Of a stretch of DNA of 64,000 bases, positions 900 through 37,060 are shown piece after piece. The stretch covers positions 171,747 to 235,746 of the forward strand of contig JALQBC010000052.1 of assembly GCA_023375675.1 (NCBI GenBank), given 5' to 3'. This DNA is from Cytospora piceicola. Its lineage: Eukaryota; Ascomycota; Sordariomycetes; Diaporthales; Cytosporaceae. Every line of letters begins with the position of its first letter. The stretch's first letter is position 1. The notes beneath the pieces were generated by a model. That model was not told the origin of the DNA. It was given only the letters and a program-made list of their open reading frames with translations, and did no database searches. The translations under genes and the position numbers were made by a program.

Positions 900-2464
900 T
901 CAGGAAGAGAACTGAACGGCCAACCCCACTCCCCGGAACGGCGCATCCAGCCTCTTTAAATCAATGTCCGACCCCAGACTGAACAGCAACGACTTGTACC
1001 GGCTCTCATACAGGAGCCCTAGCCTCATGTGCAGGTCGCAGCGACACTTGAGTACGCCCGCCGAGATTTCGTCCTCTGGCTCGTCCGCCTTGGTGATCTT
1101 CTCCCCTGTTGTAGGGTCGTAAGTCTCTTCTGGGGTGGTACTGTTGTCGCCGTTGCCGTCAAGTCGCCATTCCAACTTGGCTTGGAAGCTTCGCTCCCGG
1201 TATGCGGGCTGGTTGGGAGGAGAGACGGACGGGGCAGGTGTTGTCGTAGTCGAAATCAATGTCGTGTCGGTTGGTTCCAGGGGCGTCATGGCCGCCATGG
1301 AAGTCGGATCAACCTCCTTGCGATCCACGAGTTCCCCCTTGGCAATACCATTCATCTCGTCCATATTCTTCAGGGCCGCCTCCGCTATGCCAGCCTCAGC
1401 CGCCGCCTCGGCCCCCTCGTCCTCGTCCATGGCCGCCCCAGGTGCCAAGGGGCCCCTCTTCCTCCACAACTCCATGCCCACGGCCCACTCGCTCTCGTAG
1501 CTGTACACGTTGAAGCCAAACATGCTCGCCAGCGTACAGTCCCCCGCCTGGACCGTGTACGTGGCGCTCATGTGGCCCAGCAGGTTAAACGTCAGCGTCG
1601 CGGCGAGCGGCGTCCCCGCGTGGGTCGGCAGCGTCTGGAACCGGCCCCCGATGGACATGCCGCCCGACTTGTTCAGCAGGCCGTAGTAGATCTCGCCGCC
1701 GACCGAGAAGCGCCCGTTGATGCGCTCCCTGTTGTTGTCCTCGGGGGGCGGGGGCGGCAGGGGCGGCAGTGCCGCCGGCGGCTCCGGGGGGCCGCCGGCC
1801 GGCGAGGCCGGGTTCGTCACGTTCCAGAGGCCCCGGAGGCCCAGCACGCCGCCGTCCGAGGACGCGAGCGTCTCCACGCCGAACCTGCCGTTGGGGTCGT
1901 CCCACTGGGCCAGCCCGAGCAGCGTCGCGCCGTGCCTCAGGCGCTCCTGGCTGACGGCCCTCAGCGACAGGTTGACCTGCCTGCTCACCCTGCACGCCAC
2001 CAGGGCCTCCAGGCTGTTCTGCGGGAGGTAGAGTCGCCCGTACACCAGGCTGTGGCCCACGGCATGGTTGACGGCCCTCGTGCTCAGTTCCCTGTAGCAC
2101 TGGAGCAGGTTCTGCAGGGGGATCTGGTCGGAGGATGTGGTCAAGGTTGGGTCCGTCAGGGGGCGGGTAGAGTACAGGTAAGATATCCAGCCATCCTTGA
2201 TGCCGATGCTGTAGGACGTGCCGAACCGGGGGCGCACGAAGGAGCTGAGTGTTATCCGGCTCCCGGAGGGCGTGGGGAAGTGCAACAGGGAGCGGGAATT
2301 CAGGTCGAGGTTGGAGTACTGAGAGGTCGGGTATTAGTGGGAGTGAGAGATGATGTATGCTGGACCGGGGGGAGGTGCATTGAGCGTACACTGGTGTCGT
2401 AGGTGTTGCCCCCGCTGGCGGTGACGAAGGCTTCTTGCAGGTAATCTATGAAGTCGCGCATCAT
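900..2464 (-). CDS. MDM10: Mitochondrial distribution and morphology protein 10 (ERMES beta-barrel)
   Basis: Mdm10 is an outer-mitochondrial-membrane beta-barrel of the ERMES ER-mitochondria tether and also binds the SAM assembly complex. Two exons: 2464-2390 and 2318-900, split by a 71-nt phase-0 intron (donor GTACGC, acceptor CTCAG). The joined protein is 497 aa. The N-terminus reads MRDFIDYLQEAF, then YSNLDLNSRSLLHFPTPSG after the splice, the hallmark Mdm10 start. ISYLYST, SLVYGRLYLP and the terminal GVGLAVQFSS (a beta-signal-like end) also fit. A long low-complexity acidic/Ala/Thr insert (roughly residues 300-385) interrupts two strands; such loops are common in filamentous-fungal Mdm10. 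Two adjacent ATGs (2464 and 2461) could serve as start. Without the intron the long frame would begin at an internal Met and lose the conserved N-terminus. Confidence 0.93.
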
Positions 2465-3468: not shown

Positions 3469-5419
3469 TCAAGAATCGTCAGACAGCAGCTCCACATCTT
3501 CCATCCCATCATCTGCTTCGCAGGCTTTGATGGCTTGCCAGTACTCGTCAATGAGGCGCCGGCAGTTGGCCAGGTTCTTCACGGGCTCCCATGTACTGCG
3601 AGGCGACCCTTCCCTCCACTGGACTTTGTATTTTTTATCTTCCGGATTGTAGTCCACAATATTCTCGGCATCATACTCCGAAGATGACTCCCGCGACCGG
3701 TCATTCGCCGCATTGTAGCCGTAACGCAATCGAAGTTGATCTCCGAAATCAGTCGGCGGTATGGGCCTCACGTTGAAGTCAGGCCAGCGGGGGAGGTTGT
3801 TCTGGGGAGGTTCGACAATCGGCGAGCGACCCTTGCGGTATGGATCCGAGGCATGTCGCCGAAGCCGTCGTCGAGGGTGGTCTCGGCGATGCGTTCCTTC
3901 GGACGCGGGCAAGGGTGGCGAAGGATCAGCGGCGGCATCTTCAACTGTCGCATCGGTATTGGCAGTAGCAGTGGCGGCGTTGTCGTCGTCGTCTTCTTGG
4001 TTGACAGTCACGGAACTATCGTAGGTTTCATCGTCGTACCCATCATCAACGATCTCATCTTCGTATTCGCAATCATCTTGGGTATTCTGGGCGTTTCCCG
4101 CGACTCTGCTGCTATCATCGAAGATCCGCAGTCGTGGCCGCTGGCCTTCGGTAAACCACTCTCGAGACTTCCATTCGATGAGAAGACCAGCCTTCTTGTG
4201 AAGAAGCCGCAGGAACTAGAAAGGCGTGTTATTCATGTGCTGCAGGGGGACAGGTATTATAGTATACTCACATTGATACAAGATGGACACGGTTTGTGGT
4301 CCAACTCGATCAGGGTCTCCCTCAGCCTTGTAGGCAACTGAGGCGAGATCTCCTTCAGTCTCGCGATATTTTCCACAGTGACTTCGTCGGTGTCCAAGGC
4401 TTCAGCGAGCGCTTCCCTCAACACCCAAGCTCCCAGCTGCTTTTCGGCATGGCAACGGAAGAATGCGCCCGTTTTAAGCCTCGGTTCCCCGGACCATCGC
4501 TATTAAAATATCGTTATCAGTACTAGTTCTGTCGTAGTTGTGGAATGAAGAAGTCATAGAAACCTACGTAGTCAAGCCTGTGACCTCCAAGCGTAAACCC
4601 GTATATACTACAGATACGGTGGACGAGACCTGTGTAGGACTTGTTGCAAAGGACGTCTTCACCCTTGACGCCAGCCCAGCCTGAAATCGCGAACTTGGAG
4701 ATTTTGACCTCGTTCTTTCCGCGGATGATTCCACTGCTCTTGCGGCCTAGAACAATGTTGACTTCAGTTGCTCCGAGACGTCGGAGCTCCGCTACTTCGA
4801 GATGTTTGCCGCATCGTAAAAATACTAGGCGGGGAAGGGGCGTGTCTGTTGGTGGCGTTTCTGCTGGTGGCGTTTCTGCTGGTGGTGTGTCTGCTGATGG
4901 CGTGTCTGCTGATGGCGTGTCTGCTGACGGCGTGTCTTGGAGGACGGTCCCCGGGGGGCGCAAGTTCCTCGAACGTAGTATATTTGAGCGACGTCGGGGC
5001 CGTGAGGTCTTGTTGGCATATTTCAGAATTTTCAGCGAGTACTGAATAGTGTTTTGCCCACTTAGGCAAGGGCCGGCCGTAGCGATTCCTTGGTACCTAA
5101 GAATGAGGTCGCGAGTAAACGCGCCCTGGATGTAGTCTATGACAGGATGGCCTTGATGATCTCTGCTTTCCAAGGCAGCCCCGTTCTTCAACAGGTATTG
5201 GAAGATCTCGGCCCGACCGAAGAGAGTAGCCAGCATTAACGGCGTGGTACCCGTTGATGACCGGGCGTTTACTCCCAGCTCGCGCGACCGGAGCAGGGCG
5301 CGGACCTTCTGATGATCATTTTCGAGTACGGCCGCGTGGAGAGCTGTAAGGCCGTCAGGGAGGGCTGCCTCCATCGCCATCGCATTGTTGCTACCAGCTA
5401 CACGTGGCTGGTCAGCCAT
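3469..5419 (-). CDS. Ankyrin repeat / DYW-like deaminase core / chromodomain fusion protein
   Basis: Three exons, 5419-4568, 4499-4272 and 4215-3469, joined by phase-0 introns of 68 nt (donor GTAGGT, TACTGATAAC branch-like site, acceptor TAATAG) and 56 nt (donor GTGAGT, acceptor TTCTAG). The protein is 608 aa. Residues about 22-105 form ankyrin-type repeats (GLTALHAAVLEND; GTTPLMLATLFGRAEIFQYL). Residues 161-195 are a DTPSA/ETPPA tandem repeat. Residues about 295-375 carry the zinc-deaminase signature: C-H-A-E-K at 300-304 (H301 ligand, E303 proton shuttle) and P-C-P-S-C at 354-358 (C355, C358 ligands), followed by NFLRLLHKKAG, resembling the HSEKLA...CxDCH...I pattern of DYW-type nucleic-acid deaminases. 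An acidic linker follows. Residues about 540-588 are a chromodomain (EYDAENIVDY; YKVQWREG; TWEPVKNLANC; LIDEYW). Seen: motifs and frame-consistent splicing. Known: such deaminases edit C to U or act as toxins. Inferred: a chromatin-targeted deaminase. OTT_1508-type deaminase is the alternative family. Confidence 0.8.
4835..4936 (-). repeat. 15-bp coding minisatellite (DTPSA/ETPPA)
   Basis: About seven tandem 15-bp units on the minus strand inside the ankyrin-deaminase gene, encoding five-residue Pro/Thr repeats between the ankyrin and deaminase parts. Unit variants (SA, PA, PT) are grouped, which suggests recent slippage. It probably acts as a flexible linker. Confidence 0.85.
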
Positions 5420-6133: not shown

Positions 6134-7741
6134 TTATCGGCCAATATACTTCAGCTCGAGGTACCTCAGAGGCACATACAAGACCAAGGTGAAGCCAAAG
6201 GCCAGCTCGTTCGCCAGGTCACCACCCGCACTCCCTACCAACTTGCCCAGTGGCCCAGTGAACCAGGTCTCGACCATCCCAAGCACCCAGCCGACAACCC
6301 CCACGAGGAACGCCACCAGCGCAGCGAGACCAATAGGCAGTCGCTTGGGGTCGTTCCAGCCTTCGAGGTCGTAGTTGTCGGCGGAGCCCTTACGGAATAT
6401 GTAATGCTCGCACCAGACGATCACGAAGAACGACGTGGCCCAGTACCCGAGCAGCGACAGGAAGTTCTGCAGATAGGCGTTCAGGTGCTCCCTTCCTCCG
6501 GCAGCGATTCCAAAGGTGATACCAAACAGAACCAGCGTCCAGACAAACCGAGGGACGCGGGCCAGAGGTCGCGCAAACTGTTGCACGGAGAGCGCGCAAC
6601 TGTACAGGTTGATGCAGTTCATACCGATTCCTGAAAGTACGAGGACCACAAGGACGAACTTGGCGAAGCCACGAGGGTAGAGCATCTTCTGGATCAGGAA
6701 CCCGACGCCCTGGTCATTGTAAATATCCGCCAGGGCTGGCTCGGCGCCCATGGACGATCCGATGCAGCATCCGAGGACCATACCCACACAGGTCGAAAGG
6801 CCGATGCCCATAGTGGTCAAAGTGAAGATCTTGAGCTTGGAGCTATATTATTATCAGATTAGTAACAAACCAAGGTCTTCTGCGAAGAAGACATACGTAT
6901 TGCGCGGGTGGAGGACATAAAAGTCAGCCGCGATGGTCGCCCACGAGACCGAGGAGCCGTACACAATCGCCAGCAGTGACAGCACGTTGCCGCTCAGGTC
7001 CGTCCCCTTCAAGGTGCTTTTGGTATGGATATCTGCCCGCGGTGCCATCTCCCCATACATAACCATAAAGAGCACAAAGAAGATGGCCCAGGCGTACTTC
7101 TGGTACTCCAAAATAGCACGGAGACCACAGAAGTTCAGGACGGAACTGCAGACAGCGACGATGACGATGCCCACGATGGACGAGACCTTGCCGTTGGACA
7201 CGGCCGAGAGGGCAGAGCCGGCCGTGATGCAGCCCACGGCACTCCATCCGATCTGGGAGATAACATTGAGAAACGCCACGATCTTGGCGGGGTACCAGCC
7301 GAAGCTGTACCGCGCCAGACTCATCTCGCGCAGACCCATGGGGCCCATGGTGGCGCAGAATCCGGCGACCATGGCCCCGAGGAGCGTGCCAAAGATGGTG
7401 ATGGGGATGGTCTGGCTCAGGTCCAAGCCGAGCTCCCATCCCAGGAAGCCCGTCGACATGCACGACACGTTCATAGTGGCGCCCGCCCACAGCAGGGCCA
7501 TGGTCGCCTGCTGGTGCCACGACTGCGGCTTCTGTTCCTCGGGCAGGACGCGCTGAATGGCTTGCGACTCGATGCCCAGCTTGCGATCCAGGGCGGCCTC
7601 GAGGATGAGGAGCCTGTCGAGGATGCCGGTACCCTTAGCGTGGGAGGTTTCATGGACCGAGGCGTTCTCCGACGATGATGACTCGGTGGTCTTCGCCGCC
7701 ACCGCCACGTGGTCGAGCTGCTTCTCTTCGTCGTGAACCAT
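6134..7741 (-). CDS. NCS1-family purine-cytosine permease (Fcy2/FcyB type)
   Basis: Plasma-membrane proton symporter of the nucleobase-cation-symport-1 family, Fcy branch, importing cytosine and purines. Two exons, 7741-6897 and 6842-6134, with a 54-nt phase-2 intron (donor GTATGT, acceptor ATATAG) that restores FYVLHPRNTSKLKIFTLTTM. The protein is 517 aa, close to yeast Fcy2 (533 aa). A hydrophilic N-terminus is followed by the family-typical GIESQAIQRVLPEEQ stretch and about 12 hydrophobic segments, including a Gly-rich TM1 region (ALLWAGATMNVSCMSTGFLGWELG) and TM4-type NVISQIGWSAVGC. The exact substrate cannot be read from sequence. Its 5' end faces an 1.1 kb promoter region. Confidence 0.9.
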
Positions 7742-8838
7742 TTTGGCTTGGTGATTCCGCCGTGTCGATGTATGCGCTGGCGTTAATTATGCGATCTCCC
7801 CCCGGGCTGGGGAGAGAAAGAAAAAAGGAAGGAGAAGAAAGAAAAGAAGTCAAAGAGCAGTTCGACTGTTGCGGCGACATCTTTAAATTTTTCTTTAGTG
7901 CGGTGGGGGTGCATGGCGTTGCAATCAGACGTCGTCCGTTACTCGCGTTATCGCCGTACGTAAGTGCTAGCTTTGCATTTCTCCTTCCAGACGTGGATCT
8001 GCGGCCCACATTTCCAGGGACAGAATACCAGGAATACTGATCCTGCTGGATAAGGCCATACTGTTTACCCAGTAGTAGATACTGGTAGATATATATATAT
8101 GGGTAATCAGACTGCATATCAGGCGTGGCGACATGTCTCAAACGTTACATCGTTTATCAGTCACAAATCCTGCAAACCGTAATCATGTAACATGTAAGAG
8201 CAATCAAGAGAGCCGCATGCTGATGAAGTCCAGATGTCGTTGGGAGTCCGTCCATATTGCCTCGCCATATCAAGGGTCCATCCAGCCCTTTTGATGCTCA
8301 TACTGGGCGCATCCCCCCCCCCTATGCTCTTTTTTCCTCCGGATGTCCAACACCAACCAGCTCACCACCACAGCGTGACGGGTAACGGAAAATATTCCAA
8401 GACAATGATCCAGACTCTAGTTTTCATAGTGGATATCTGCATCTGGCATATCGTTGTCTCTCACCCTCGCATGCTCCATTCATCTGTGACTCTGAGCTGA
8501 CCCAAGCTTGCGATGTCGACTCACATGCCCGTGGAGGGTCGGTCACCAGGCATACGGCAGCCCTCATGACCGAATGATCAGTCTCAGCTGCCAGGTATCC
8601 ACTCCGTCAGTTTCAACGGTCTTAAAAGGACAAATAAATCCTTTCTATCCTCCTGGAGGAAAACACTTAAGCCATGTTATTAGCATTCTTTCGTGTATTA
8701 ACTCAACCGCGCAAAATTTAGCCCCCACCCTCCTCCCTTTTCTTTCATGGCAAGCGGAGCACAACAATATCGGAACAGTGAAATCAACAAGCAGCAGACC
8801 TCAAGACTCTGGGCGGACAACTTGATACGTATTCAACT
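7742..8838. other. Intergenic
   Basis: About 1.1 kb divergent region between the permease start and an orphan gene. It contains purine-rich GAAAGAAAAAAGGAAGGAG-like sequence near 7810-7850 and a C10 tract near 8311. No convincing coding sequence. Confidence 0.55.
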
Positions 8839-35560: not shown

Positions 35561-36286
35561 TTAGGAGACGTCAGTGTCGCTTCTCATGACCTCCACTAAA
35601 GTCTTGTATCCAGCCAGCGCCGAGAAGTCCTTGCGGTTGTAGGCCTCCAAGGCATGGTGGAAAGTTCCATTGGGCAGGAAGATCTTATTGACTCCAGAGC
35701 CATCGTTGTACGACATGTAGTTGGGATCCATACATCCTCCATTCCCGTCCGCGTCCGCGTCCCTCTTCCAACCATGGGGAGTAGCCCCCGTATTACCATT
35801 CAGCCAGAAGGCAGAACAGGTGCTTCCGTCACCCCCGCCAGGGGGAATGTCGCTGCAGCAGTCGGCCGTGTTGTCGACGCCGCCCTGGGTGCAGTAGCTG
35901 CCTCCATTCTTGTTCAGCTGGCAGTTGTCCTGGTGGATAAAGTACTGGGTGTATATGAAGGGTTTGGGAACGACGCCCACGCCAAGCATGAGGTTCACGC
36001 AGAAGGGGGCGTAGCTGTTGCAGCACACGCTGGCAGGGTGCATGTAGCAGCCAATGTGCTGTTGGGTTGGGAAGGGTTAGTAACAAATCATTGCAGTTCG
36101 GTATATACAACCAAAAGCCTTATTTACGGACAGCTGGGGGTATAAGCTTCAGAGGGGCGGCGATTTCCTTACGTCGCTGCTGATGTTACAGCCGTTAGCG
36201 GAGCTGTAGAACATGAGGGAGTTGGCGCTGACAGTGCCCATCATGAGAAGGAAGGCAAGGAAGACCATGTTGACTGGAGACGGCAT
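35561..36286 (-). CDS. Small cysteine-rich secreted protein
   Basis: Two exons, 36286-36173 and 36058-35561, with a 114-nt phase-0 intron (donor GTAAGG, branch TACTAAC, acceptor AACAG). The protein is 203 aa. Residues 1-21 are a signal peptide (VNMVFLAFLLMMGTVSA). The mature part has about 11 cysteines, including two CC pairs (SVCCNSY, DCCSDIPPGGG), a mostly polar composition and the recurrent YxxYFIHQDNCQ segment. I do not recognise a catalytic domain. A secreted, Cys-rich protein of this size next to an AT-rich island fits an effector-type or cell-surface protein, but a housekeeping extracellular role is equally possible. The gene converges with the GH106-like gene. Confidence 0.75.
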
Positions 36287-36507
36287 GTTCGGTCGATGAT
36301 GTTTGGTGAACCTTTGTTCACTTTCTGGTTTCGAAGTATCAGAATCGATCCTCGGTCGCGACGAGTTTGGTGCTTTCTTTTCAAAGCTTGAGTTGATCCT
36401 TTTGGTCCTGTCAAGAGTTGGGGCAGACGTGGTGGTGTCTTAGGAGAAACTTTGCGAGGGGCAAACCTCAGCTACTGGGCCTTAAGTAAATACTTGAGTG
36501 TCGGTGT

Positions 36508-36545
36508 ACGTACCTACTTAAGTACCTAGGTAGGTACTTAGGTAG
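36508..36545. repeat. TACCTAGGTA-type palindromic cluster
   Basis: Tandem GTACCTA/TAGGTAC units with TTAAG spacers at the left border of the AT-rich island. Further AGGTAG/CCTAGGTAG copies extend to about 36620. Confidence 0.7.
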
Positions 36546-36639
36546 TTTCCTTGTTAGGGTTCCTATAACATACTTCACACCTGAATAACTAAGTAGGTAG
36601 AGTGCCTAGGTAGTTGCCTCCTTAGTCACCTCTGCTAGA

Positions 36640-37060
36640 TATACCTGTTAAGCTGTATTCACTGCACTAATAACTTACAATATACCTAGGTATATATATA
36701 ACCTCAGAGGTTTAAGTTAAAAAGCCTACTCTAGCATATACTCCTATAAGTGTAAAAGCTTACTATTAGTATAATTATTTCACTATTCCCTTTTAACATT
36801 TAAGCACTTTAATTAGATATTTAATATAGCTTTCTTATATTATTAATATAAGTATACTTATACATAGCACTTTAGTTTAAGCTTTAAATAATTCTTATTA
36901 TATAACTAATATTTTTCTTATATACTTTATTATAACCTTTTTTATTTATTACTATTTATTTGACATCCTACTTATATTGTTATAAGTGAAGGTATTTGAT
37001 TGAATGGAAGCCAGACTAACTAGTTAGTCTGTATGACTCTTGTATACTATAATATATAGT
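36640..37060. repeat. AT-rich island, probable RIP-mutated transposon relic
   Basis: A sharply bounded AT-rich segment of about 400 bases dominated by TATA, TTAT and ATTA strings, in contrast to the mixed composition around it. In Pezizomycotina such islands usually are transposon copies degraded by repeat-induced point mutation. No element end, ORF or target-site duplication can be assigned with confidence. Confidence 0.6.
37012..37031. repeat. Perfect 20-bp palindrome
   Basis: CAGACTAAC/TAGTTAGTCTG reads the same on both strands. It sits at the right edge of the AT-rich island. Confidence 0.8.

Follow-up and report, generated by a model that had tools for sequence, protein, structure and literature searches.

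SsdA of Pseudomonas syringae (BaDTF2; PDB 7jtu and 9c63; PF24120) is a bacterial type VI secretion toxin domain accompanied by an immunity protein and devoid of ankyrin repeats and chromodomain, and its activity is described in PMC7901873 as strong deamination of single-stranded DNA (ssDNA), weaker on double-stranded DNA and residual on RNA. A Ser-Gly-Trp (SGW) motif is reported there near the active site, at a place occupied by other features in RNA-editing DYW proteins, and the CxDC motif carried by SsdA is given in PMC11789416 as the hallmark of BaDTF2. The plant PPR-DYW enzymes act on RNA, possess a second-zinc motif together with a C-terminal DYW and lack SGW. In fungi, the combination of ankyrin repeats with a downstream SsdA-type deaminase is an established architecture, known from databases and from mentions in the literature (one case is Fusarium oxysporum FOYG_15860, here P0018), in which the deaminase is usually placed at the extreme C-terminus and no Chromo match is found. 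The gene described here belongs to Cytospora piceicola, from a genus of tree-canker fungi, and adds a C-terminal chromodomain to these two parts; it lies in a 64,000-nucleotide stretch of DNA (GenBank contig JALQBC010000052.1, positions 171,747 to 235,746; the window), which belongs to contig C50 in our numbering of a 43.6-Mb genome of 99 contigs. The reading preferred here, held tentatively and drawn from sequence comparison, is that the gene product is a cytosine deaminase of the SsdA type, tethered to chromatin and probably nuclear.

The gene is located on the minus strand (5419-3469) and its three exons encode a protein of 608 amino acids (Table 1). An earlier reading made from the letters alone (the sequence-only reading) had proposed three frame-compatible exons and 608 residues; its coordinates, strand and exons were reproduced exactly, and H301, E303, C355 and C358 were all found where it had placed them. 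Because exons 1 and 3 are each a single open frame, the former holding both the ankyrin part and the SGW motif and the latter (248 codons) the deaminase end with the chromodomain, only exon 2 needs splicing. Both exon junctions are crossed by the alignment in all four annotated Cytospora relatives (P0001-P0004), and the introns look conserved, since unspliced open reading frames (ORFs) of further relatives have edges at the same positions: P0005-P0008 leave the alignment just past the same WLDN/WFDC position and P0009 covers exon 2. It is hardly credible that two or three adjacent genes were merged in this model, given the two unbroken frames and the same domain order across both junctions in P0004 (Cytospora schulzeri VMCG_10476); judged by the relatives, it is one gene.

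The Pfam gathering scores served as the cut-off for domain calls in the window protein, and as Ank_2, SsdA_C and Chromo are all above them, the three domains exceed chance. Thus the ankyrin repeats, deaminase core and C-terminal chromodomain that had been read into one protein are each matched by Pfam. SsdA_C (PF24120) reaches 43.4 bits against a cut-off of 27 (E 5.3e-11) at residues 244-306, and the whole zinc-deaminase domain comprises residues about 196-392. Searches of NCBIfam, PHROGs and PADLOC gave nothing beyond ankyrin-type or weak matches. In the structural model of P0004, mean predicted local distance difference test (pLDDT) values are 91-98 in the ten-residue blocks of 251-320 and 76 in the HAE block (241-250), and a fold search with this 551-residue model was filled by ankyrin proteins, which is uninformative on its deaminase. 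The 15-bp tandem repeat, which is missing from the four aligned Cytospora relatives, is a variable-length linker inside the coding sequence.

Table 1. Position of the gene parts, domains and motifs in the window
Feature	Position	Strand	Basis
Exon 1: residues 1-284; ankyrin repeats, linker and start of deaminase domain	4568..5419	-	open frame, spliced translation, alignment of relatives
Intron 1: 68 nt, GT...AG	4500..4567	-	spliced gene model
Exon 2: residues 285-360, deaminase core	4272..4499	-	gene model, alignment of relatives
Intron 2: 56 nt, GT...AG	4216..4271	-	spliced gene model
Exon 3: residues 361-608 and stop codon; deaminase end, acidic and basic linkers, chromodomain	3469..4215	-	open frame (248 codons), gene model
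Ankyrin repeats: residues 21-91	5147..5359	-	Ank_2 E 3.8e-11
15-bp tandem repeat, 6.6 copies, encoding DTPSA/DTPPAE linker	4839..4937	.	repeat call
Deaminase domain, first piece: residues 196-284	4568..4834	-	PF24120 match 244-306 and alignment
SGW motif: residues 246-248	4676..4684	-	sequence, alignment of relatives
HAE motif: residues 301-303	4443..4451	-	sequence
PCPSC motif: residues 354-358	4278..4292	-	sequence
Acidic linker: residues 393-468	3892..4119	-	sequence, alignment of relatives
Basic stretch: residues 469-490; candidate nuclear localisation signal	3826..3891	-	sequence only
Chromodomain: residues about 540-590	3526..3678	-	PF00385 E 1.9e-6; 28.2 bits vs cut-off 25.1

For comparison 108 distinct proteins were gathered from three protein searches, which reached only proteins of a certain length range in which short words of the query recur exactly, so that rarer or longer forms were possibly missed. 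The organism names shown for them are those of ascomycetes, including Fusarium, Aspergillus, Penicillium, Trichoderma, Colletotrichum, Pyricularia and Daldinia; 73 of the proteins form alignment A4, in which domain matches were counted at E <= 0.1. The sequence-only reading had recognised a cytidine-deaminase-type domain, which is confirmed by the SsdA_C match together with HAE and CxxC, and had named DYW_deaminase (PF14432) and OTT_1508 (PF14441) as candidate families. When this was checked with profiles, neither family matched the window protein at E <= 1 in Pfam, whereas SsdA_C does; among the A4 relatives OTT_1508 matches 14 of 73 (best 1.7e-4). SGW, HAE and CxxC are common to SsdA and the window protein, and the fungal family matches SsdA by both profile and fold. 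The SGW motif is present within 105 of the 108 collected proteins and 11 of 12 bacterial relatives, and in the clade formed by the window protein and P0001-P0004 the motifs SGW and HAE and both zinc cysteines are invariant (5/5). The H..C.C second-zinc motif and a terminal DYW occur in none of the 108 collected relatives (0/108); in the window protein CxC and H..C.C are not present, and its C-terminus reads LLSDDS, with no terminal DYW. It follows from the match to SsdA_C, and not to DYW_deaminase or OTT_1508, that ssDNA is a likelier substrate than RNA. The window protein retains the two cysteines of CxDC without the aspartate that marks BaDTF2 in the narrow sense, and a toxin role in interbacterial antagonism, the other mark of that group, has no counterpart in a fungal gene with introns and without bacterial context, for which reason the domain is classed as SsdA-like and not as BaDTF2.

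Within A4, SsdA_C is matched by 71/73 and Ank by 66/73 proteins, which bears out the statement in the sequence-only reading that ankyrin-linked deaminases occur in ascomycetes. What is unusual is the tail with the chromodomain. Chromo is matched in 1/73 of the A4 members, and PF00385 appears in the precomputed Pfam annotation of 1 of the 108 proteins, in both cases P0004, so that the chromodomain form is rare, the window gene having a single counterpart among database entries. The tail after CxxC measures at most 36 residues in 82 of the 87 measurable proteins outside the clade (46, 52, 56, 85 and 417 in the other five), 131-246 residues in P0001-P0004 and 250 in the window protein. In open-licence literature no description of an ankyrin-SsdA-chromodomain protein was found. 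The sequence-only reading had singled out the added chromodomain as unfamiliar; the survey of homologues upholds the rarity of the fusion and not its uniqueness, as P0004 shows the same domain order. Between the window protein and P0004 the ankyrin parts are 63% identical, the deaminases 60%, the chromodomains 47% (49 positions) and the C-terminal linkers 56-57%; P0004 differs in having no 15-bp-repeat linker and a shorter chromodomain loop. That the clade was acquired from bacteria on its own is not favoured, because its members match fungal domains better than bacterial ones; the tree cannot settle this point, its clade stem being long and the tree program having given a warning that long branches join.

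The pre-chromodomain linker of the window protein is recognisable in the tails of P0002 and P0003 (6 and 2 of 200 shuffles were as good); for those species a loss of the chromodomain, a mis-annotation or a later gain may each apply. A frameshifted chromodomain remnant in the P0001 tail found no support, since in the three frames 92, 96 and 135 of 200 shuffles did equally well. A conserved zinc-finger-like stretch of the CPYCxKIHxHGF type stands before the ankyrin part in P0018 and other canonical fungal members; the Cytospora chromodomain clade does not have it. In P0036 (Epichloe bromicola EsDP_00005972) SsdA and protein-kinase domains are found in one annotated protein, which is either real or a merged gene model.

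With HP1- and Clr4-type chromodomains the window chromodomain has EY, TWEP and sequence similarity in common, and by these features it resembles readers of histone H3 methylated at lysine 9 (H3K9me), namely Clr4, CDYL2 and HP1. Its relatives of solved structure are Clr4 (1g6z; E 8.9e-6 for the window protein and 1.6e-5 for P0004), CDYL2, MPP8, HP1 and others, and the Chromo match in P0004 reaches 35.1 bits. At the positions which we take to be those of the three-aromatic cage of HP1 and Clr4, the first (EY) and the second (QW/KW) aromatic are kept in both proteins. The genome of C. piceicola contains 11 chromodomain matches, the window gene included, among them CHD1-like, HP1-like and chromovirus integrase ones, as named by reading their sequences. 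A recent chromoviral (transposon) origin of the window chromodomain is not favoured, with TWEP kept and the best solved relatives being Clr4, CDYL2 and HP1. Three loci of the same genome (L017-L019, on C52, C55 and C12) hold degraded chromodomain copies with stops at expected tryptophans, as from repeat-induced point mutation (RIP).

The SsdA_C profile matches two places in the genome, the window gene and C21:358332-358469, which has one stop. The latter locus (L003:4827-5192) is a broken remnant that shares 65-67% identity with residues 286-410 of P0011, the canonical C. schulzeri paralogue, and no match to an ankyrin part was found in the 9.9-kb stretch around it. The chromodomain form is accordingly the only SsdA-type gene found unbroken in this assembly. 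Three OTT_1508-like deaminase loci were also noticed in the genome (C47:64001-68263 and C79:1073673-1073852), of which two are separated by about 4 kb.

In the deaminase superfamily zinc is held in the active site and a glutamate shuttles a proton, by which C is converted to U. In the window protein the zinc ligands would be H301, C355 and C358, with E303 as the proton shuttle. The SsdA-like domain would deaminate cytosine in ssDNA, probably its substrate by kinship to SsdA, where this is exposed by transcription, replication or repair. The chromodomain and the basic linker would anchor the enzyme on particular chromatin, perhaps H3K9-methylated repeats, and the ankyrin repeats at the N-terminus would engage a partner by which the enzyme is targeted or held in check. 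A more far-reaching proposal, in which a bacterial-toxin-derived ssDNA deaminase and an H3K9me-reader-like chromodomain make up a chromatin-guided DNA mutator of some fungi of the Cytospora lineage, a fungal counterpart of AID/APOBEC causing C-to-T changes in marked chromatin such as silenced repeats, is considered unlikely. As the chromodomain form was seen in only two fungi, in searches of limited reach, a function as the general RIP deaminase is unlikely; the protein may have a lineage-specific role, and a link to C-to-T mutation or genome defence is conjectural.

Several observations weigh against a chromatin-tethered ssDNA deaminase. In PMC11789416 (2025) a contribution to organellar mRNA editing is ascribed to members of the wider family from plants and fungi. 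The clade stem in the tree is long (4.93 changes per column), so the chemistry may have changed, and the window protein has CPSC, with S also in all four relatives, where CxDC is found in 54 of the 60 other aligned fungal members having both cysteines. A profile built from the five clade members alone gave no match among solved structures, and phmmer with the window deaminase gave two, both spurious. The chromodomain is absent from three of the four annotated Cytospora models (P0001-P0003). At the third cage aromatic, in which HP1- and Clr4-type domains differ from it, the window protein has G in alignments to Clr4, and P0004 has a gap there (S by position); with this aromatic missing in both, methylated-histone binding is plausible despite the incomplete cage. 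Furthermore, the chromodomain is no better kept between the two proteins than the adjoining linkers, hence it is not the most constrained part.

The long stem and the replacement of CxDC by CxSC would also suit a catalytically dead adaptor, in which the deaminase fold is kept as the nucleic-acid-binding module of a chromatin protein. This is distinctly improbable, for the catalytic and zinc residues are all invariant in the clade, and S at the aspartate position is found outside it as well, in 1/60 other fungal rows and 1/12 bacterial relatives (L022), so that CxSC need not mean lost activity. An RNA C-to-U editor acting on nuclear or chromatin-associated transcripts in the manner of plant DYW enzymes is likewise quite improbable: SGW is present, the second-zinc pattern and terminal DYW are absent from the window protein and all 108 collected proteins, SsdA is credited in PMC7901873 with residual RNA activity only, and a chromodomain sits oddly with organelle editing. 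Rather unlikely, too, is an effector of self/nonself recognition or antiviral defence, in which the ankyrin part senses or restrains, the toxin-derived deaminase damages nucleic acid once released and the chromodomain adds nuclear localisation only. In its favour, ankyrin with SsdA is the usual fungal architecture, the domain stands, toxin-like, at the ORF end in 12/12 bacterial loci, divergence within the clade is fast, and the same genome retains only a broken remnant of the canonical paralogue, as is often so for conflict genes. Nevertheless, a simple killer would not need a chromatin-type tail conserved in two species.

Elsewhere in the window, 900-2333 (minus strand) encodes an MDM10 mitochondrial protein (Pfam E 4.1e-97) and 6854-7786 (minus strand) a match to cytosine/purine permeases (Transp_cyt_pur, E 1.2e-14). 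The frame at 6134-6847 (minus strand) has no Pfam match and may be the next exon of that permease gene, at 6134-7786. Positions 36001-37000 are a RIP-like stretch with GC 0.39 and a composite RIP index of 0.71, the top value among the 1-kb steps of the window.

To our knowledge, no fungal enzyme is established as deaminating cytosine in nuclear DNA, and we regard the chemistry of C-to-T mutation in fungal genome defence as unsettled. With an SsdA-type domain and a chromodomain in one protein, DNA mutation and its steering by the chromodomain can be tested directly. If active, the protein would add a eukaryotic member to a family which, according to PMC11789416, is already used for base editors. 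Should the chromodomain guide a DNA-mutating enzyme to chromatin, its addition would be of consequence.
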